DNA from: Gordonia bronchialis DSM 43247
GTDB taxonomy: Bacteria; Actinomycetota; Actinomycetes; Mycobacteriales; Mycobacteriaceae
Length of the DNA stretch: 64,000 nt
Assembly: GCF_000024785.1 (NCBI RefSeq)
Contig: NC_013441.1
Location: 2,046,001 to 2,110,000 of the forward strand
Reading direction: 5' to 3'
Each line of letters starts with the position of its first letter. Position 1 is the first letter of the stretch. A program made the translations under genes and the position numbers. Shown in pieces: positions 1 through 7,627 of this stretch. Under the pieces are notes generated by a model. That model had not been told where the DNA came from, did no database searches, and saw only the letters and a list, made by a program, of their open reading frames with translations.

Positions 1-58
1 ACGACGGTCCGAAGATGCCCGACGGGCCGCTCTGCGGGATGACGAGTGCGAGTTTCAT
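1..58 (-). CDS. Periplasmic-binding-fold protein, AmiC-like (partial, 5' end only)
   Basis: Only the first 19 codons lie in the window, on the minus strand from an ATG at 58 and running off the left edge. The peptide begins MKLALVIPQSGPSGIFGPS, which resembles the first beta strand and ligand loop of type I periplasmic-binding proteins of the amide, urea and branched-chain amino acid kind. There is no signal peptide, so a cytoplasmic amide sensor like Pseudomonas AmiC fits better than a transport protein. It starts 25 nt after the MarR stop codon, in the same direction, so it is probably the third gene of the amiB-marR operon. No clear Shine-Dalgarno is visible. The family call rests on 19 residues and on the amidase context, so it is tentative. 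Confidence 0.5.
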   Translation of the reverse strand, partial: MKLALVIPQSGPSGIFGPS

Positions 59-83
59 TGTCTGCGAGTGTGCCCGTGCCCGG

Positions 84-581
84 TTACCCCGAGGTTGCCG
101 ACAGGTCAGTTGCCGACAGGTCAGTTGCAGAACGGTCAGCAGCGTCGTCGCCCGTCGCCGTCTGCGCTCGGATCAGGTGGTCGAGGCCGTCGGTGATCCC
201 CAGATATCGACGGGAGCCGATGGCGCCGGCGAGTTCCCGCTCGATCGCGCGTCGTCGCTCACCGACCGTGGCCGTCGTCTGGGCGCCGTGAGGGCTGAGG
301 AAGACCATCACTCGGCGACGATCCAGCGGATCGGCCCGGCGATACACCAGGGCCAGTGAGATCAGTCGGTCCACGGCCCGGGTGGCACTTGCCGGTGGCA
401 GCACCGCCAGACGTGAGAGGTCCGTCATCGGCAGGCCTTCGCCGGCGGCCAGAACCTCCAGGACCCGCCATTGCTCGCCGGTCACGCCGCAGTCGTCGAG
501 TACGGGTGCCAGTCGATCGGAGATCAGCTGTGCCGCTCGGAGCAATTGCAGCAGCAGCGGGTCCTCGTGCCGCTCAGGCAT
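84..581 (-). CDS. MarR-family transcriptional regulator of the amidase locus
   Basis: A 165-aa protein with a typical MarR layout: N-terminal dimerisation helix (LQLLRAAQLISDRLAPVL), then a winged helix (GEQWRVLEVLAAGEGLPM, LPPASATRAVDRLISLALVY) with the basic wing RRADPLDRRRVMVFLS. The ATG at 581 is preceded by AGGAGAG and overlaps the last 8 nt of the AmiB-like gene, so the two are probably translationally coupled. MarR proteins usually repress nearby genes and release DNA on binding a small ligand; inferred targets are its own operon and divergent amiE. As I recall, the M. smegmatis acetamidase locus also pairs a MarR-like repressor (AmiA) with AmiC. The last residues contain a repeated pentapeptide (ATDLS) encoded by a 15-bp tandem repeat. 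Confidence 0.85.
   Translation of the reverse strand: MPERHEDPLLLQLLRAAQLISDRLAPVLDDCGVTGEQWRVLEVLAAGEGLPMTDLSRLAVLPPASATRAVDRLISLALVYRRADPLDRRRVMVFLSPHGAQTTATVGERRRAIERELAGAIGSRRYLGITDGLDHLIRAQTATGDDAADRSATDLSATDLSATSG
94..138. repeat. Three tandem 15-bp units in the 3' end of the MarR gene
   Basis: The unit GTTGCCGACAGGTCA occurs exactly at 94-108 and 109-123, and with three changes at 124-138. Read on the minus strand it encodes repeated A-T-D-L-S residues at the very C-terminus of the MarR protein, outside the DNA-binding domain. Slippage here would change tail length in steps of five residues without shifting frame. Confidence 0.85.
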
Positions 582-1647
582 CGGACTCTCCTGTCGGTGA
601 GTGGACTTGATCGGTGACCGCGATCCCGGACGGGGTGACGTCGACGCGCACCGTACGTCGTCCTTGTGCGGTGCCCGGCGTGCGAAGGAGTTGTTCGGCG
701 ATGGGTGCATACACCTCGTTGCGCAGTGCCCGATGCAGGTGGCGGGCACCGTAACGATCGTCGAATCCGCGGGTGGCGAGACGGACACGAACCGCTTCGG
801 TGACCTCGCAAAACACCGCTCGGTCTGCCAAATCGTTTGTGAGACGGTCGATCTCGAGATCAACGATGCGGCGGGCCACGCTGCGGTCGATGGAGCGGAA
901 CGTGATGATCTCGTCGAAACGGTTGAACAGTTCCGGATCCAAAAATTCCCGGACCGCGTCGACCACGATCTCGGTCTCGTCACGGTGACGGCCGGCGAGC
1001 CGTCCGGCCGCGGCGGTCATCCGCCGTCGGTACCCGCGCTTCGAGCGCAGGTCGTGTACCTCGCGGGAGCCCAGATTGGAGGTCAGCAGGACGATCGCAT
1101 TGCGGAAGTCGATCGAGGTGGTCCCCGACGCGAGCCGCAGAGTGCCGGCGTCGAGGATCTGCAGGAGCGCACGCAGCACGCTCGGATGTGCCTTCTCGAT
1201 CTCGTCGAAGAGCACGACGCCCGGCCGGGACAGGGAACCTTCGATCTTGTCGCGCTCGAAGAGGGTGAACTGCTCCTTGGAACCCGCGTATCCGGGCGGT
1301 GCGCCGGACAGGGATGCGGCATAGTGCTCCTGCGCGAGCGAGTTCATGTCGATGCGACACAGGTTGTCGGCGTCGCCGCGGACGAGGGCGGCGACCCGGC
1401 GGGCAAGCTCCGTCTTGCCGACGCCGGTGGGGCCCACCAGGAGCAACGAGGCGATCGGGCGACGACGATCGCCCAAACCCGCGGCTGCGATCGTCAACGC
1501 ACGCACCACCGCGTCGACGGCGTGGTCCTGCCCGACGATCGCATCCGACAGGCCGTGGCGCAGGTCGTCGATCGACCGGACGTCGCCCAGGCGAAAACCG
1601 GTGGTGGAGTCGAGGTCGTGGAACCTTGTCGCCAGGTGTCCGGACAT
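574..1647 (-). CDS. amiB: AmiB-like AAA+ ATPase (single Clp D2-type module)
   Basis: A 357-aa protein made essentially of one Clp/Hsp100 D2-type AAA+ module. Visible motifs are Walker A GPTGVGKT (72-79), Walker B VVLFDEIEKAH (144-154), a pore-loop-like GAPPGYAG (115-122), sensor 1 VLLTSNLG (about 185-192), an arginine-finger region ELFNRFDEI and a sensor 2 GARHLHRAL near residue 307. The N-domain, D1 ring and ClpP-binding loop region of full ClpB/ClpC are absent. AmiB of the Pseudomonas aeruginosa amidase operon is likewise a short Clp-related ATPase (about 370 aa), and the divergent neighbour here is amiE, so I assign it as amiB. Its job is not settled; it may remodel amidase subunits or energise uptake. 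First gene of a minus-strand operon with marR and the AmiC-like gene. Confidence 0.8.
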   Translation of the reverse strand: MSGHLATRFHDLDSTTGFRLGDVRSIDDLRHGLSDAIVGQDHAVDAVVRALTIAAAGLGDRRRPIASLLLVGPTGVGKTELARRVAALVRGDADNLCRIDMNSLAQEHYAASLSGAPPGYAGSKEQFTLFERDKIEGSLSRPGVVLFDEIEKAHPSVLRALLQILDAGTLRLASGTTSIDFRNAIVLLTSNLGSREVHDLRSKRGYRRRMTAAAGRLAGRHRDETEIVVDAVREFLDPELFNRFDEIITFRSIDRSVARRIVDLEIDRLTNDLADRAVFCEVTEAVRVRLATRGFDDRYGARHLHRALRNEVYAPIAEQLLRTPGTAQGRRTVRVDVTPSGIAVTDQVHSPTGESDA

Positions 1648-1652
1648 GACCG

Positions 1653-1804
1653 CCTTCCGTTCGCTACCGATTGAAAGTAGATCACGCGAGCCACTGTCGT
1701 GTCGTCTGAGTGCCCGTCACGTGATCAATACCCCTAGGAAACCTCGCCGCAATCGCCTGTGCGTTACCGTCGAAGCGCCTATCCTTCCGTTTGGAAGTAA
1801 ATCA
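1653..1804. promoter_or_regulatory. Divergent amiB/amiE control region with a repeated element
   Basis: CCTTCCGTT plus a TTGRAAGTARATCA element occurs twice in the same orientation. Copy one is CCTTCCGTT at 1653-1661 and TTGAAAGTAGATCA at 1671-1684, just upstream of the amiB start. Copy two is CCTTCCGTT at 1783-1791 running directly into TTGGAAGTAAATCA at 1791-1804, just upstream of the amiE ribosome binding site. The 14-mers match at 12 positions. Copy two also forms a perfect inverted repeat CTTCC-GTTT-GGAAG (1784-1797). These are candidate MarR operators or activator sites; binding is inferred. Confidence 0.5.
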
Positions 1805-1821
1805 GAAGCAAGGGAGTCGAC

Positions 1822-2859
1822 ATGCGTCACGGTGACATCTCGTCCAGCCCCGATACCGTCGGGGTGGCCGTCGTCAACTACAAGATGCCGCGCCTGCACA
1901 CGCGAGCGGAGGTCATCGACAACGCGAAGGCGATCGCCGAGATGGTGGTCGGGATGAAAAGCGGTCTGCCCGGGATGGATCTCGTGGTGTTCCCGGAATA
2001 CTCGACGCAGGGCATCATGTACGACGACGACGAGATGTATGCCACGGCGTCGACGATCCCCGGCGACGAGACCGACATCTTCTCGGCTGCCTGCCGGGAG
2101 GCCAAGACCTGGGGAGTTTTCTCGATCACCGGCGAACGGCACGAGGATCACCCGAACAAGCCCCCGTACAACACGCTCGTCCTGATCAACGACGCCGGCG
2201 AGATCGTGCAGCGCTATCGAAAGATCCTGCCGTGGACGCCCATCGAGGGCTGGTATCCGGGTGGCCAGACCTATGTGACCGACGGCCCCAAGGGTCTCAA
2301 GATCTCGCTGATCATCTGCGACGACGGCAACTACCCGGAGATCTGGCGTGACTGCGCGATGAAGGGTGCCGAGCTGATCGTGCGCCCGCAGGGCTACATG
2401 TACCCCGCCAAGGACCAGCAGGTGCTGATGGCCAAGGCGATGGCCTGGGCCAACAACTGCTACGTGGCGGTGGCCAATGCCACCGGCTGGGACGGCGTGT
2501 ACTCCTACTTCGGGCACAGCTCGATCATCGGGTTCGACGGTCGCACGCTCGGCGAGTGCGGCGAGGAGGAGTACGGCGTGCAGTACGCGCAACTGTCGCT
2601 GTCCACCATCCGGGACGCACGGCGCAACGATCAGTCGCAGAACCACCTGTTCAAACTCCTGCACCGCGGGTACACCGGGGTGCTCGCCGGCGGCGACGGT
2701 GACAAGGGGATCGCCGAGTGCCCCTTCGACTTCTATCGCAACTGGGTGACCGACGCAGAGGCCACCCGCAAACAGGTGGAGGCGATCACCCGCGAGACGA
2801 TCGGCGTGGCCGACTGCCCGGTGTATGACCTGCCGACCGAGAAGGTGATGGAGGCCTGA
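1822..2859 (+). CDS. amiE: Aliphatic amidase (acylamide amidohydrolase)
   Basis: A 345-aa cytoplasmic enzyme of the nitrilase superfamily that hydrolyses short aliphatic amides such as acetamide to the acid and ammonia, and can transfer the acyl group to hydroxylamine. Recalled P. aeruginosa AmiE (346 aa) is near-identical over long stretches, starting MRHGDISSS. The catalytic triad is E59 (FPEYS), K134 (YRKIL) and C166 ([12 protein letters not shown]). The ATG is preceded by AAGGGAG at a good distance. It is transcribed away from the amiB-marR-amiC-like operon and ends in a strong terminator shared with the convergent monooxygenase gene. Expression is probably amide-inducible through the linked MarR and AmiC-like proteins. 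No amiS-type channel gene follows it here. Confidence 0.97.
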
Positions 2860-2932: not shown

Positions 2933-4780
2933 TCAGCTCAGGTGATGGACCTCCTGCAGTCCGTAGACCGGCGTGGGGATGCCTTCGTAGCGTGCCTTGA
3001 GTTGCAGGGCGAGATAGAGCGAGTAGTGCCGCGACTGATGCAGGTTGCCGCCGTGGAACCACAACCCGGGCTGCTGGGTGGGCTTCCACATGTTGCGCTG
3101 TTCGCCCTCCCACGGACCAGGGTCCTTGGTGGTGTCCGAGCCCAGGCCCCACACCTTGCCGACGCGGTCGGCGACCTCCTGGCCCATCAGATCGGCCGCC
3201 CAACCGTTCATCGACCCGTAGCCGGTGGCGTATACCACCACATCGGCCGGGAGTTCGGTGCCGTCGGCGAGGACCACGCTGGTCTCGGTGAGGTGATCCA
3301 CCTCGCCGTGGGCCAGCTTGATGGTGCCGTCGGCGACGAGGTCGCAGGCGCCGACGTCGATGTAGTAGCCCGAGCCGCGTCGGAGGTACTTCATGAACAG
3401 ACCCGAGTCGTCGTCGCCGAAGTCGAGGTCGAAACCGGCGGCTTCGAGACGATCGTAGAAGTCCTTGTCGCGCCGGCGGATCTCGTCGTAGATGGGGATC
3501 TGGAACTCGTGCATGATGCGGTACGGCAGCGAGGCGAAGGTCAGGTCGGCCTTCTTGGTGGTCATCCCGGACTCCACCGCCTGCTCGCTGTAGAGCGAGC
3601 CGAGGCCGACCTCCATCAGCGAGTCGGACCGGACGATGTGGGTCGACGACCGTTGCACCATCGTGGTGTCGATCCCGTTCTCCACCAGAGCTTTACAGAT
3701 GTCATGCGCCGAGTTGTTGGCCCCGATCACCACCACCTTCTTGCCGCGGTAACCGTCGGGTCCGGGGTGGGCGCTCGAGTGATGCTGCTCGCCTGCGAAG
3801 ACATCCTGGCCGGGGAAGGAGGGCACGTTGGCCTTGCCGGACATACCGGTGGCCAGGACGAGTTGCGTGGGATGCAGTGTCATCTTCTCGCCGTCGCGGT
3901 TCACCTCGACCGTCCACTGGCCGGCGGCCTCGTCGTAGGTTGCGCTCAGGCACTCGGTGCGGCTCCAGTAGGGGACCTCCATCACCTTGGTGTAGAACTC
4001 GAGCCAGTCGCCGATCTTGTCCTTGGGCGCGAAGACCGGCCAGTTCGCGGGGAAGGGCAGATACGGCAGATGGTCGTACCAGACGGGGTCGTGCAGGCAC
4101 AGTGACTTGTAGCGTTTGCGCCACTGGTCGCCGGGCCGGTCGTGCTTGTCGACCACGATCGAGGGCACGCCGAGCTGACGCAGCCGGGCACCGAGCGCTA
4201 TGCCGCCCTGGCCGCCGCCGATGACCAGCACATAGGGCTGCACCGTGCGGCCGAGTTCGGCGTCCTCGGCCTCCTTCTTCTCCGCCCACGAGCGGGGGTC
4301 GGGATCGGAGCCGTGGACCGCGCCGCGGCGACGGGTGTACCCGGCGGGCTCCTCGTGACCCTTGAGCTCCTGCAGTGTTGTCAGCAGTGTCCACGCGAGG
4401 TCCTCGCCCGTCTCGGTATCCGGGCGCAGTCGCAGGTGGCCTTCGCAGCGTCCGACGGCGGTCTCGAAAGCGATGAAGGCCGACGCGACGCCGTCCTCGT
4501 CGGTAGCGGGTTCGACGGTGCGAAAGCCCGCCGGATCGGTGCCGGCCAGCCGCTCGCCGAGCATGTCGGCGATCTGTTCGCGACCCTCGACGGTCCTGAT
4601 GTTCCAGGTGAAGGCGACCAGGTCACGCCAGTAGCTGTCGACGGCGAAGAGCGAGATCACCCGCTCGATGTCCCGGGTGGCCAGGGCGGATTCGAACTTC
4701 TGTAACCAGAGCTCCACCCGCTGCTGGGCGGTCCCTGGTTCGTCGGCTGCCCGGGTGTCGGGCTCGAGGATCTGGGTCAT
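2933..4780 (-). CDS. Flavin-dependent NAD(P)H monooxygenase with N-terminal NTF2-like domain
   Basis: A 615-aa protein in two parts. Residues about 20-140 look like an NTF2/SnoaL-like alpha+beta barrel (WLQKFESALATRDIERVISL, YWRDLVAFTW). Residues 180-615 are an FMO/Baeyer-Villiger-like flavoprotein with the FAD Rossmann motif GGGQGG (188-193), a second nucleotide-binding motif VVVIGANNSAHD (349-360) and the late VVYATGYGS segment. It should use NAD(P)H and O2 to oxygenate an organic substrate; the substrate cannot be read from the sequence. The ATG at 4780 follows AGGAGGTG; upstream in-frame codons lie in the operator region. Divergent from a GAF-domain regulator that is its likely activator, and convergent with amiE. 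Confidence 0.85.
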   Translation of the reverse strand: MTQILEPDTRAADEPGTAQQRVELWLQKFESALATRDIERVISLFAVDSYWRDLVAFTWNIRTVEGREQIADMLGERLAGTDPAGFRTVEPATDEDGVASAFIAFETAVGRCEGHLRLRPDTETGEDLAWTLLTTLQELKGHEEPAGYTRRRGAVHGSDPDPRSWAEKKEAEDAELGRTVQPYVLVIGGGQGGIALGARLRQLGVPSIVVDKHDRPGDQWRKRYKSLCLHDPVWYDHLPYLPFPANWPVFAPKDKIGDWLEFYTKVMEVPYWSRTECLSATYDEAAGQWTVEVNRDGEKMTLHPTQLVLATGMSGKANVPSFPGQDVFAGEQHHSSAHPGPDGYRGKKVVVIGANNSAHDICKALVENGIDTTMVQRSSTHIVRSDSLMEVGLGSLYSEQAVESGMTTKKADLTFASLPYRIMHEFQIPIYDEIRRRDKDFYDRLEAAGFDLDFGDDDSGLFMKYLRRGSGYYIDVGACDLVADGTIKLAHGEVDHLTETSVVLADGTELPADVVVYATGYGSMNGWAADLMGQEVADRVGKVWGLGSDTTKDPGPWEGEQRNMWKPTQQPGLWFHGGNLHQSRHYSLYLALQLKARYEGIPTPVYGLQEVHHLS

Positions 4781-4825
4781 GTCGGGCACCTCCTGATCGT
4801 GGTCATGCGCCGTCGGTCGGCGATG

Positions 4826-4922
4826 TGTGATCCACAGCACATACCGTCGGACGATGTGCGGCAAGGGTTGCAATGGGTTGCGGAAGCGGCGGGCTTTGCC
4901 CCCGGGTGTGATCGAGAGCACA
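4826..4922. promoter_or_regulatory. Paired TGTG-N8-CACA inverted repeats in a divergent promoter
   Basis: Two nearly identical 16-mers, TGTGATCCACAGCACA (4826-4841) and TGTGATCGAGAGCACA (4907-4922), lie 81 bp apart between the monooxygenase and GAF-regulator genes. They share the half-sites TGTG and CACA and differ only in central positions. The second ends 10 nt before the regulator start codon. The arrangement suggests a dimeric regulator, probably the adjacent GAF protein, binding two sites to control both genes. Inferred from sequence only. Confidence 0.6.
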
Positions 4923-4932
4923 ATCGAAGGCG

Positions 4933-6165
4933 ATGTCGAATACGAGATCTGTTCCTGAACCGGCCGTCGCCGCCGGCGACGACCCGCGTCAGTTCGCCGA
5001 GGTGCTGAGCGCCGTCTACGACGCCGCGATGGCCGGCGAGCGGTTACCGGCCCGGCCCCGCGAGGTGATCAGCGATTCCTGGGACCGGGTGGCCAGCGCC
5101 GGGGTCGACCCGGACCGCGGCGGCCCCGACGACGCCCTGGGCGTCGGTGATCTCGAGGCGCGCCGCCAGGACTCCGATCTGCGGCTGGTCCTCGACGTGC
5201 TGACCAACGGTCTCGAGACGGTCACCGCCGACGGTGACAACATCCTGGTCGTCGCCGATCCGCTGGGACGTGTGCTGTGGCGCAGCGGCGCCACCCGCGT
5301 GCTCGGCAAGGCCGATCGGCTCGGTTTCGTGGAGGGTGCGAGCTGGGCGGAGAACACCGTCGGCACCAATGCGATCGGGACCGCGCTGATGTCGGGCCGC
5401 GCGGTACAGGTGTTCTCCGCCGAGCACTTCGTCCGCAGTCACCACGCCTGGACCTGCACGGGCGCGCCCGTCACCGATCCCCGCACCGGTGCGGTGCTCG
5501 GCGTCGTCGACGTCAGCGGACCGGCCGCGACCATCCATCCGACGACCCTGGCGCTCGTGGACGCGGTCGCGAAACTCGCCGAGGCCGCGTTGCGCGATCA
5601 CCACCGCGAGAGTCTCGACCTCCTGCGGTCGGTCGCGGCGCCGATCCTCGCGCGCTCGGGCGGGCCGGCGCTGGCGGTCGACAACCACGGGTGGGTGGCG
5701 GCGGTGGGCGCGACACCGCCGCAACGGCGCGTGATGCTGCCGCGGGGGGTGAGTCCCGGACGCGCCCGGGTGGCCGGCCTCGGGGAATGCGAGCTCGATC
5801 CGCTGCCCGGCGGGTGGCTCGTCCGGGTCATCGAGGGCGGCGCGTCCAGTGCGTCGACGACGGTCGAACTCGAGTTACGCGGACCGCGTCCGGTGGTGCG
5901 GGTCGCCGGCGGGGCCGGATGCTGGACCCACGAGCCGTCACCGCGGCATGCGCAGATCCTGGAGATCCTTGCGGGCGGGCGCTGCACGGCGGCGCAGATG
6001 TCGCGTCACGTGTTCGGCACCGACGATCGCACGATTACTGTGCGGGCCGAGATCTCCCGACTGCGCAAGAGTCTCGGCGGACTGATCGTCGGGAATCCGT
6101 ACCGGTTCGCCGACGGCGTCGACGTCGTCGTGCGACACGCGACACCTGCTGAGACGGACCACTAG
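4933..6165 (+). CDS. GAF-domain transcriptional regulator (AcoR-like N-terminus, no sigma-54 module)
   Basis: A 410-aa protein. Residues about 60-220 form a GAF-type sensor domain as in AcoR-family activators, including GFVEGASWAENTVGTNAIGT and SHHAWTCTGAPVTDPRTG. The sigma-54-interacting AAA+ module of true AcoR proteins is missing. The last 90 residues (HAQILEILAGGRCTAAQMS, RTITVRAEISRLRKSLG) look like a winged-helix DNA-binding domain. It is divergent from the flavin monooxygenase and separated from it by paired TGTG-N8-CACA repeats, so it most likely senses the monooxygenase substrate and controls both genes. The ATG at 4933 has only a weak GAAGG upstream. The glutaminase gene starts 10 nt after its stop, suggesting co-transcription. 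Confidence 0.8.
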   Translation: MSNTRSVPEPAVAAGDDPRQFAEVLSAVYDAAMAGERLPARPREVISDSWDRVASAGVDPDRGGPDDALGVGDLEARRQDSDLRLVLDVLTNGLETVTADGDNILVVADPLGRVLWRSGATRVLGKADRLGFVEGASWAENTVGTNAIGTALMSGRAVQVFSAEHFVRSHHAWTCTGAPVTDPRTGAVLGVVDVSGPAATIHPTTLALVDAVAKLAEAALRDHHRESLDLLRSVAAPILARSGGPALAVDNHGWVAAVGATPPQRRVMLPRGVSPGRARVAGLGECELDPLPGGWLVRVIEGGASSASTTVELELRGPRPVVRVAGGAGCWTHEPSPRHAQILEILAGGRCTAAQMSRHVFGTDDRTITVRAEISRLRKSLGGLIVGNPYRFADGVDVVVRHATPAETDH

Positions 6166-6175
6166 ATTCAACGCC

Positions 6176-7627
6176 ATGGCCTCTCACGTCGGCGGGTATC
6201 TCCGTCACATCATGGACACCTGTGCCCAGAACCGGTCGGGACAGGTTGCCGATTACATCCCGGAACTGGCGGCCGTCGACCCGGACGGTTACGGGCTCTC
6301 GCTGTGCGTGCACGACGGGCACACCTACTCGTGCGGCGACAGCGACCACGAGTTCACCATCCAGTCGGTCTCGAAACCGCTGACCTATGCGATGGTGCTC
6401 AGTCGTCTCGGCGCGGTGGCCGCGGACCCCAAGATCGGTGTGGAACCGTCCGGGGAGGCGTTCAACGAGATCAGCGTCGACGCCCGGCGCCGCCCACGTA
6501 ACCCGATGATCAACGCCGGCGCCATCATGTCGGCGTCGTTGTTGCTGCCGCCGGTCCGCGACGTCGCCGAGAGCGTGATCGTTTCCACCTTTGCCGAGAT
6601 CGTGGATTTCTACTCGGCCTGCGCCGGCCGGCGGCTCACGATGGACGAGGCCGTCTATACCTCCGAGTCGCGGACGGGGTCCCGCAATCGCGCGATCGCC
6701 TACATGCTGGACAGCTTCGGAACCCTCGACACCAGCCCGGATGCCGCCCTCGACCTGTACTACCGGCAGTGCTCGATCCGGGTGACCACCGACGATCTCG
6801 CGGTCATCGCCGCCACCATCGCCAACGGCGGACTCAACCCGCGCACCGGTCGGCACGTCTTCAATCAGGAAGTGGCCCAGCGGGTGCTGTCGGTGATGAC
6901 CACCTGCGGCATGTATGACGGTGCCGGTGACTGGGTGACCAGTGTCGGGTTGCCGGCCAAGAGCGGTGTCGGCGGGGCGATCATGGCGGTCCTGCCGGGA
7001 CAGCTCGGGATCGGGGTGTACTCACCGCGGCTCGACGAGCACGGGAACAGTGTGCGCGGTGGCGAGACATGCCGGCATCTGTCGACCGACCTGGGGCTGC
7101 ACATGTTCAACGTCACCCGGGAGAGCCGGGTGACCATCCGGGCGGTCTACGACATCAGCGACGTCCCGGTCGGCACGGAGTGGTCCGAGCAGGAGCGGGG
7201 GTTCCTGCGCACGTGCCGCGATCGGGTGCGCGTCTACGAACTCCAGGGTGATCTGACCTTCGGCGGCGCGGAGAGCGCACTGCGTCGGCTCGAGACCGAC
7301 ATGGACGACTTTGTGGTGGCCATCGTCGAGATCTCGCGGATCGGGGTGATCGACCCGGTGGCCCGCACAATGATCCTCAGCATGAAGCGCACCCTCGAGG
7401 AGCGGGGGCGCCAGGCGATGCTCGTCGATCCAGACGGCGTGATGCGCGACAGCGTCGACCGTCATCGCCACGACGCAATCGCGCCGGATCTCAATGTGCC
7501 AGAGGACCTTCGCGGGCTCGACCCCACTCTGCCGCACGTGCACGCGACGATGGACGCCGCGGTGGCCGACGCGGAAGAATTTCTGCTCAAGCGCGCCCGG
7601 GACGAAACGGTTCGCGACTCGGGCTAG
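6176..7627 (+). CDS. glsA: Glutaminase A with C-terminal STAS domain
   Basis: A 483-aa protein. The first 300 residues are a serine-dependent beta-lactamase-fold glutaminase that hydrolyses L-glutamine to glutamate and ammonia: the S64-x-x-K67 motif lies in TIQSVSKPLTY, with NPMINAGAI and SRTGSRNRAIAYML also typical. Bacterial GlsA is usually about 310 aa. The extra C-terminal part, from about residue 350 (VYELQGDLTFGGAESAL, VVAIVEISRIGVIDPVAR), is a STAS/anti-sigma-antagonist-like domain, suggesting regulatory binding or oligomer control. The ATG lies 10 nt downstream of the GAF regulator stop, without a strong ribosome binding site. Plasma or cytosolic location is not evident; there is no signal peptide. 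Confidence 0.92.
   Translation: MASHVGGYLRHIMDTCAQNRSGQVADYIPELAAVDPDGYGLSLCVHDGHTYSCGDSDHEFTIQSVSKPLTYAMVLSRLGAVAADPKIGVEPSGEAFNEISVDARRRPRNPMINAGAIMSASLLLPPVRDVAESVIVSTFAEIVDFYSACAGRRLTMDEAVYTSESRTGSRNRAIAYMLDSFGTLDTSPDAALDLYYRQCSIRVTTDDLAVIAATIANGGLNPRTGRHVFNQEVAQRVLSVMTTCGMYDGAGDWVTSVGLPAKSGVGGAIMAVLPGQLGIGVYSPRLDEHGNSVRGGETCRHLSTDLGLHMFNVTRESRVTIRAVYDISDVPVGTEWSEQERGFLRTCRDRVRVYELQGDLTFGGAESALRRLETDMDDFVVAIVEISRIGVIDPVARTMILSMKRTLEERGRQAMLVDPDGVMRDSVDRHRHDAIAPDLNVPEDLRGLDPTLPHVHATMDAAVADAEEFLLKRARDETVRDSG

Follow-up and report, generated by a model that had tools for sequence, protein, structure and literature searches.

In Pseudomonas aeruginosa, the aliphatic amidase AmiE is encoded in the operon amiE-amiB-amiC-amiR-amiS (PA3366-PA3362), in which AmiB is listed as a 'probable chaperone' (PMC10213629). 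We analysed the amidase locus of Gordonia bronchialis, which lies at the left end of a window of 64,000 nucleotides (G000:C1:2046001-2110000) in the 5.29-Mb genome, together with an extended stretch of the same locus (L007), and we propose, with slightly more confidence than doubt, that its AmiB is a dedicated remodeller of AmiE. The P. aeruginosa AmiB is related to Clp, and to our knowledge AmiB, known for decades as the neighbour of a soluble hexameric amidase, has had no assigned function. The Gordonia bronchialis locus resembles the P. aeruginosa operon in holding AmiE, a stand-alone AmiB (likened by its description) and an AmiC-type sensor together. However, it contains no AmiR or AmiS match, a MarR-family regulator is present instead, and amiE is divergent from amiB. 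It also resembles the acetamidase regulon of Mycobacterium smegmatis, a member of the same taxonomic order, where according to the titles of the publications the acetamidase operon is controlled negatively by AmiA and positively by AmiC, although the gene order differs.

AAA+ enzymes dedicated to one neighbouring metabolic enzyme are known in the Rubisco activases CbbX and CbbQ/CbbO, which rely on C-terminal residues of their client (PMC5437159, PMC5385338, PMC4660213). A pore tyrosine acting on the Rubisco tail was proposed for CbbX (PMC5385338), and CbbQ itself seems not to thread (PMC5437159, PMC4660213). The HK/R motif of Rubisco large subunits is associated with cbbQ and cbbO and is needed for activation (Tsai and colleagues; PMC4660213, PMC5437159). 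In the plasmid-borne ami operon of P. veronii, a CbbQ/NorD pair accompanies amiE, amiC and amiR; its role was called unclear, and assembly or activation was suggested (PMC13209695, 2026). The name AmiB does not occur in the main text of that paper (0 occurrences), and its section 3.3 discusses neither a C-terminal tag nor an exchange of machines. AmiB is likewise an AAA+ enzyme beside one metabolic enzyme and has a pore-loop tyrosine like that of CbbX, but unlike CbbQ/CbbO it belongs to the Clp D2 modules and was found without a VWA gene next to it, its presumed client is an amidase and its activating role is a proposal. The features on which this proposal rests are the following.

1822-2859, forward strand: amiE, aliphatic amidase of 345 amino acids (NF009802, 704.6 bits against a cut-off of 427; PF00795; 661 bits to the P. 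aeruginosa-type chain 2uxy).
2794-2856, forward strand: C-terminal tail of AmiE, residues 325-345, the portion that varies with the AmiB/CbbQ class between loci.
574-1647, reverse strand: amiB, single-module Clp D2 AAA+ ATPase of 357 amino acids (PF07724, PF10431).
1288-1305, reverse strand: pore loop 1 of AmiB, GAPPGY, residues 115-120, with the tyrosine Y120 that is invariant in the alignment of AmiBs.

In other bacteria, the slot of AmiB is filled by a CbbQ/VWA pair of the Rubisco-activase type (MoxR + VWA). We compared genome and plasmid loci; AmiE was detected by tblastn in 64 plasmid records, and stretches were taken from 29 of them (7 AmiB hits and 22 AmiE hits). The first 76 AmiE rows comprised 37 with AmiB, 10 with CbbQ, 2 with a VWA match only, 27 with neither and 0 with both, and one of the two VWA-only rows (Ancylobacter) had a CbbQ 8.5 kb away. 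The final 90 rows comprised 43 with AmiB, 12 with CbbQ/VWA, 35 with neither and 0 with both, absence being defined within a stretch of several kb per side that was cut by contig ends in some loci. The order was amiE-amiS-cbbQ-vwa-amiC-ANTAR in Burkholderia arboris and amiE-cbbQ-vwa-amiC-ANTAR in Paraburkholderia, and both nearly reproduce the Pseudomonas set, apart from the replacement of AmiB. CbbQ-like proteins beyond the locus were searched for in 11 genomes, of which our own and G028 gave 1 match each (32% in the latter) and the other 9 gave none at E≤1e-15. The match in our own genome is a distant MoxR/CbbQ-like ATPase (G000:C1:936295-936966; 31% to the Shinella CbbQ, E 4.5e-17) that is unlinked to the amidase.

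The AmiEs were 57-95% identical to the Gordonia bronchialis AmiE across loci, and their terminal residues varied with the machine. All 12 AmiEs beside CbbQ/VWA ended in -HR or -HK, the HK/R end of Rubisco, versus 0 of the 78 other rows (0/64 before the last 14 rows); this end was noticed on the AmiEs before the comparison with the CbbQO literature. Paired comparisons were performed on a tree built without the AmiE tail. A careful tree of 89 rows, from which the long row L232 had been dropped, was used because a quick tree of all 90 rows gave only 2 supported pairs. The -H[RK] end and CbbQ/VWA agreed in 5 of 5 independent pairs (p 0.0625, the lowest value reachable with 5 pairs). We regard these data as strong evidence that the AmiEs ending in HR or HK are clients of a CbbQO-type machine. 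The new observations here are that CbbQO takes the place of AmiB in some loci and that the AmiEs there end in HK/R. No discussion of AmiB as an AmiE remodeller or of an HK/R end on amidases was found in the literature surveyed; earlier print, for instance in the 1995 AmiB paper, is possible.

The tail also varied with AmiB. We counted its length after the residue aligned to R324, and at least 21 residues were present in 29/29 AmiB rows versus 0/17 AmiB-less rows among the first 46 actinobacterial genome loci, and in 37/37 AmiB rows versus 9/27 rows with neither machine among the first 76. The tail is lost, with an end near ITRDTI, in nine AmiB-less genomes of one genus (g62), whereas the AmiB-bearing G804 of the same genus keeps it. 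We also predicted the presence or absence of AmiB in 14 further genomes of family f14 from the position at which the AmiE alignment ended in the search table, and recorded the predictions before the stretches were fetched. All 14 were right (six with AmiB and eight without), but the formal odds of this result (1 in 3003) overstate its weight because the genomes are interrelated. Stand-alone AmiB was missing genome-wide in five of the eight AmiB-less genomes, and from the stretch, which was the extent of the check, in G925, G934 and G922. The AmiB tail tag is less sharp than the CbbQ HK/R tag. In two AmiB-less loci, L224 (G766) and L249 (G908), the AmiE match continues past an in-frame TGA and the AmiE as read has 340 amino acids, as if an early stop had removed part of the tail.

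AmiB followed AmiE across genomes. Among 201 genomes, our own included, AmiE was found in 27 (E≤1e-100) and AmiB in 22 (E≤1e-60); all 22 lie within the 27, and amiB and amiE are adjacent in each. In a wider sample of the order (397 genomes, best 5 candidates per genome scored), AmiE was found in 26 and stand-alone AmiB in 13, adjoining AmiE in 13/13, and the 12 other AmiB hits were long Clp frames of 853-1071 amino acids. Searches of 17 AmiE-bearing, AmiB-less genomes, and of 5 more of this kind, gave only Clp matches in frames of at least 687 amino acids (E≤1e-45). The phylum-wide search for AmiE was positive in 5/396 genomes. Among the named relatives, a close AmiB is found in Gordonia strains. 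In the second amiE locus of G028 (L131:6920-8231), the halves of amiB lie in different frames, and an open amiB is also present at L123. Both AmiB and CbbQ loci can have a gene for an acetate-CoA ligase in the vicinity of amiE (L179, L183, L184, L202, L209), which fits the use of acetamide as a carbon source.

AmiB is a stand-alone D2 module without an N domain or D1, and its AAA_2 (63-247) and D2-small (255-324) domains fill the 357 residues. The AmiB search of the genome contigs gave 80 loci, all of which except L031 were general Clp proteins at 35-42% identity. These 79 served as the outgroup, from which 40 rows were drawn out of the 78 D2 modules of long Clp proteins. In a quick tree, 34 AmiBs all fell on one side of a branch against the 40 general Clp D2 modules, with a support of 100 in the Shimodaira-Hasegawa-like approximate likelihood ratio test (SH-aLRT). 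The motif EHY.A before pore loop 1 was present in 33/34 AmiBs versus 0/79 general Clp rows, and G.PPGY was present in 34/34. The possibility that AmiB is a general Clp fragment was rejected on the separate clade and on the AmiB hits away from AmiE, which all lie in long Clp frames. In an alignment of 44 AmiBs (25 from loci and 19 from a protein search), G72-G75 and G77-T79 of Walker A, D148-E149 of Walker B, T189, N191, N242-R243, G300, R302 and the pore-loop Y120 were invariant. Walker A and B, the NR finger, sensor 2 and the pore tyrosine are thus conserved, and the ATPase site is intact as judged from the alignment.

The initial annotation had described four genes here, AmiE, a lone Clp D2 module, a MarR regulator and a gene at the left edge, and all of their positions were confirmed. 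It had further taken the ATPase for an AmiB tied to amidases; consistent with this, the protein falls in its own clade beside amiE instead of clustering with general Clp fragments, and the left-edge gene did not prove to be an unrelated protein.

A dedicated AAA+ neighbour, two unrelated machines in one slot, the lack of any locus with both and the machine-dependent tail indicate that AmiB probably performs a service on AmiE. On balance we favour the reading that AmiB remodels AmiE by gripping its C-terminal tail, within an amide-inducible regulon under MarR/AmiC control, and that a CbbQO-type machine stands in its place elsewhere. AmiB would act as a single-ring AAA+ enzyme that docks on the AmiE hexamer, and its pore would take in the flexible C-terminal tail by means of the conserved tyrosine. 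A short ATP-driven pull would then open or reset AmiE, so that a dead-end active site is rescued or assembly is finished. AmiB may serve the repair of inhibited enzyme or the finishing of assembly. Tail pulling is the likeliest action because the pore tyrosine is conserved, as proposed for CbbX. In other bacteria, the unrelated CbbQ/CbbO-type (MoxR + VWA) machine would do the same job, although AmiB and CbbQ may act differently on the same tail because CbbQ seems not to thread. A broader claim, that amidases of the AmiE type are served by interchangeable AAA+ amidase activases, either the Clp-D2 ring AmiB or CbbQ/CbbO acting on the HK/R end as on Rubisco, is tentative, and we hold its chances to be a little short of even.

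If the proposal is true, tail-gripping rescue would have arisen independently once more, after CbbX and CbbQO, with AmiB derived from a disaggregase-type module, and an enzyme of the nitrilase superfamily would join Rubisco in needing mechanical rescue. Such rescue would not be peculiar to Rubisco, and one CbbQO machine with one HK/R handle would serve an unrelated enzyme. It could also have a bearing on the amidases applied in acrylamide and nitrile conversion in Rhodococcus.

Several observations weigh against AmiB as a tail-gripping remodeller. In work of Wilson in 1995, P. aeruginosa lacking AmiB is said to have kept normal amidase expression, which indicates that AmiB is not essential in that species. 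The limit of 21 residues and the AmiB tail motif were both chosen after seeing the data. Beyond the first actinobacterial set the tail rule is less strict: over 90 rows, tails of at least 21 residues were present in 43/43 AmiB rows but also in 12/35 rows with neither machine. These 12 include the two R. koreensis rows, R. jostii RHA1 and three g331 genomes with long but unrelated tails. When the tail was scored by alignment to residue 343, five AmiB rows missed this residue (L132, L181, L182, L185, L198) and four AmiB-less rows reached it (L194 twice, L195, L208). By the same score, 1.9 of 4 independent pairs agreed between AmiB and tail, 2.1 showed no difference and 0 disagreed; the pairing is thus without significance after correction for relatedness, and the CbbQ pairs likewise reach no lower than the p value given above. 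Part of the mutual exclusion of AmiB and CbbQ may be ancestry, because the classes follow large taxonomic groups. Finally, the ClpP-loop pattern was present in 4/89 testable proteins of the wider AmiB search list.

AmiB could alternatively be an assembly chaperone that aids the formation of new AmiE hexamers, once per enzyme and with no repair of finished enzyme, which we consider rather unlikely. The 35 of 90 rows with neither machine in the stretch, whose AmiEs are 57-85% identical to the Gordonia bronchialis AmiE, argue against it, since they indicate that the AmiE fold itself demands no machine. Crystal structures of AmiE also exist, and they reportedly came from expression without AmiB. 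The linkage, tail and exclusion data, however, suit a chaperone as they suit a remodeller; in addition, NorQD, a MoxR/VWA pair, has a role in metal insertion (PMC13036017, PMC9976466), and assembly is one of the two roles suggested for the CbbQ/NorD pair of P. veronii (PMC13209695).

It is improbable that AmiB acts instead on the regulators, dissociating AmiC from MarR or from DNA and so tuning induction. The overlap of amiB with marR in the same direction, and the occurrence of MarR and AmiC in 20/23 kin loci each, would suit such a role. However, in plasmid stretches of Klebsiella, Parageobacillus and Peribacillus the pair amiE-amiB comes with no MarR match, MarR-AmiC-AmiE persists without AmiB in nine genomes of a single genus, and the amiB deletion of P. 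aeruginosa was reportedly without effect on expression.

Still less credible, and disfavoured, is an unfoldase that delivers AmiE or a regulator to ClpP. Membership of the Clp family, the intact pore tyrosine and the four pattern-bearing proteins mentioned above speak for it, but the IGF/IGL-type ClpP-loop pattern was absent from 24/24 testable locus AmiBs, that of Gordonia bronchialis included (10/34 rows were not testable by the pattern), and was found in 18/38 general D2 modules.

The idea that AmiB supplies energy to the AmiS amide channel, the two together forming a transporter, was reportedly proposed in 1995; it is very hard to sustain and was rejected as a general function. In its favour, the Pseudomonas cluster contains both genes (PMC10213629) and AmiS was in the stretch of 18/43 AmiB rows. 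Against it, 12 rows that lack both AmiB and CbbQ also have AmiS, AmiB belongs to the Clp D2 modules and not to the ABC ATPases, and by whole-genome match AmiS is absent from 16 of the 22 AmiB genomes, our own and 15 others. The remaining 6 of the 22 (G081, G087, G095, G106, G124, G159) are among 18 genomes with AmiS. The search for amiS that was recommended with the initial annotation, made with the PF02293 profile over our whole genome, gave 0 matches. These AmiB genomes without AmiS and the plasmid amiE-amiB pairs without a MarR match indicate that AmiB needs neither AmiS nor MarR.

In Gordonia bronchialis, amiE is divergent from the operon amiB-marR-amiC, whose further features and spacer elements are given below.

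84-581, reverse strand: marR, MarR-family regulator of 165 amino acids (PF12802, 1.6e-13; PF01047).
1-58, reverse strand: first codons of the amiC-like gene, the rest of which lies left of the window, to G000:C1:2045018.
1782-1799, strand-neutral: operator-like palindrome proximal to amiE, 13/14 defined positions of TACTTYC-N4-GRAAGTA.
1662-1679, strand-neutral: second copy of the palindrome, proximal to amiB, 11/14 positions of TACTTYC-N4-GRAAGTA.

The start of marR overlaps the amiB frame by 8 nt, and the amiC-like gene starts 25 nt past marR, at window position 58. Extension to the left completed this gene (G000:C1:2045018-2046058, to L007:11018; 346 amino acids) and bore out the initial annotation of a signal-less AmiC-like protein. 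The protein is closest to urea-binding proteins (8tg1, E 2e-30), with a weaker match to the P. aeruginosa AmiC (1pea, E 3e-15), and it retains the YEG.E.S and GSDY..PR stretches in the alignment to 1pea. Its N-terminus has no recognisable signal sequence, as judged by reading the sequence and not by a predictor. It may be an amide sensor that controls the regulator.

A MarR match was present in 37/46 actinobacterial genome loci and in 0/20 plasmid loci (L196-L215), and an ANTAR (AmiR-type) match was present in 7/20 of the same plasmid loci. No ANTAR match was found in L007 or in any of the 46 actinobacterial genome loci. One query was used for each family, so divergent members of either could be missed. 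These counts fit the earlier suggestion that MarR takes the place of AmiR. The arrangement is not new, since MarR and AmiC beside an amidase are usual in this order, and the Gordonia bronchialis locus is a typical representative of a known group. The AmiA of M. smegmatis is probably MarR-like, and amiB is reportedly not part of the published acetamidase regulon of that species.

The spacer between amiB and amiE contains two copies of TACTTYC-N4-GRAAGTA, one near each gene start. Of 15 divergent amiB-amiE spacers, two of which are near-identical, 10 had two copies (at least 10/14 positions), 4 had one and 1 had none; the pattern was derived from these same spacers. In none of the 14 spacers with copies did more than 0.7% of 300 single-base shuffles reach the best score. 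Taken by itself, the 14-base core palindrome is no rarity in the window (4 matches versus 2.5 expected), and the 18-base palindrome with up to 3 mismatches gave 3 matches in L007 versus 0.48 expected, one of them within the 23S gene. A scan of 1600-2900 for sigma-70 promoters and terminators found none. The most likely and simplest reading is that MarR represses both divergent promoters of an amide-inducible amidase regulon by binding the two palindromes, and that amide sensing by the cytoplasmic AmiC-like protein lifts or converts this repression.

Leftward, amiC is followed by a UspA gene and then by a ribosomal RNA (rRNA) operon (16S, 23S, 5S) at L007:4658-9955, which lies on the opposite strand directly downstream of amiB-marR-amiC-uspA. 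In another Gordonia group (L117-L121, L131), amiB and amiC are convergent and marR lies farther out; where the stretch reaches, the locus is flanked by hrcA-dnaJ and, at its opposite end, by sulphite reductase genes.

Two tubulin-like proteins (so named in RefSeq; PF00091, E 1.7e-6) are encoded as a pair close to amiE or amiC in 12/90 AmiE rows (L195:7248-10828; L122, L123, L128, L180, L230, L231, L246-L250). The pair had no NCBIfam match and was not found at the Gordonia bronchialis amidase locus. It was rejected as a third alternative to AmiB, as 4 of the 12 rows also have AmiB and 8 do not. A small open reading frame lies between the two tubulin-like genes in the loci that were read in detail. 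Beyond amiE, positions 2933-4921 and 4933-7627 of the window cover an FMO-like monooxygenase fused to a SnoaL-like stretch, then a GAF-domain regulator and a glutaminase that carries a STAS domain at its C-terminus.

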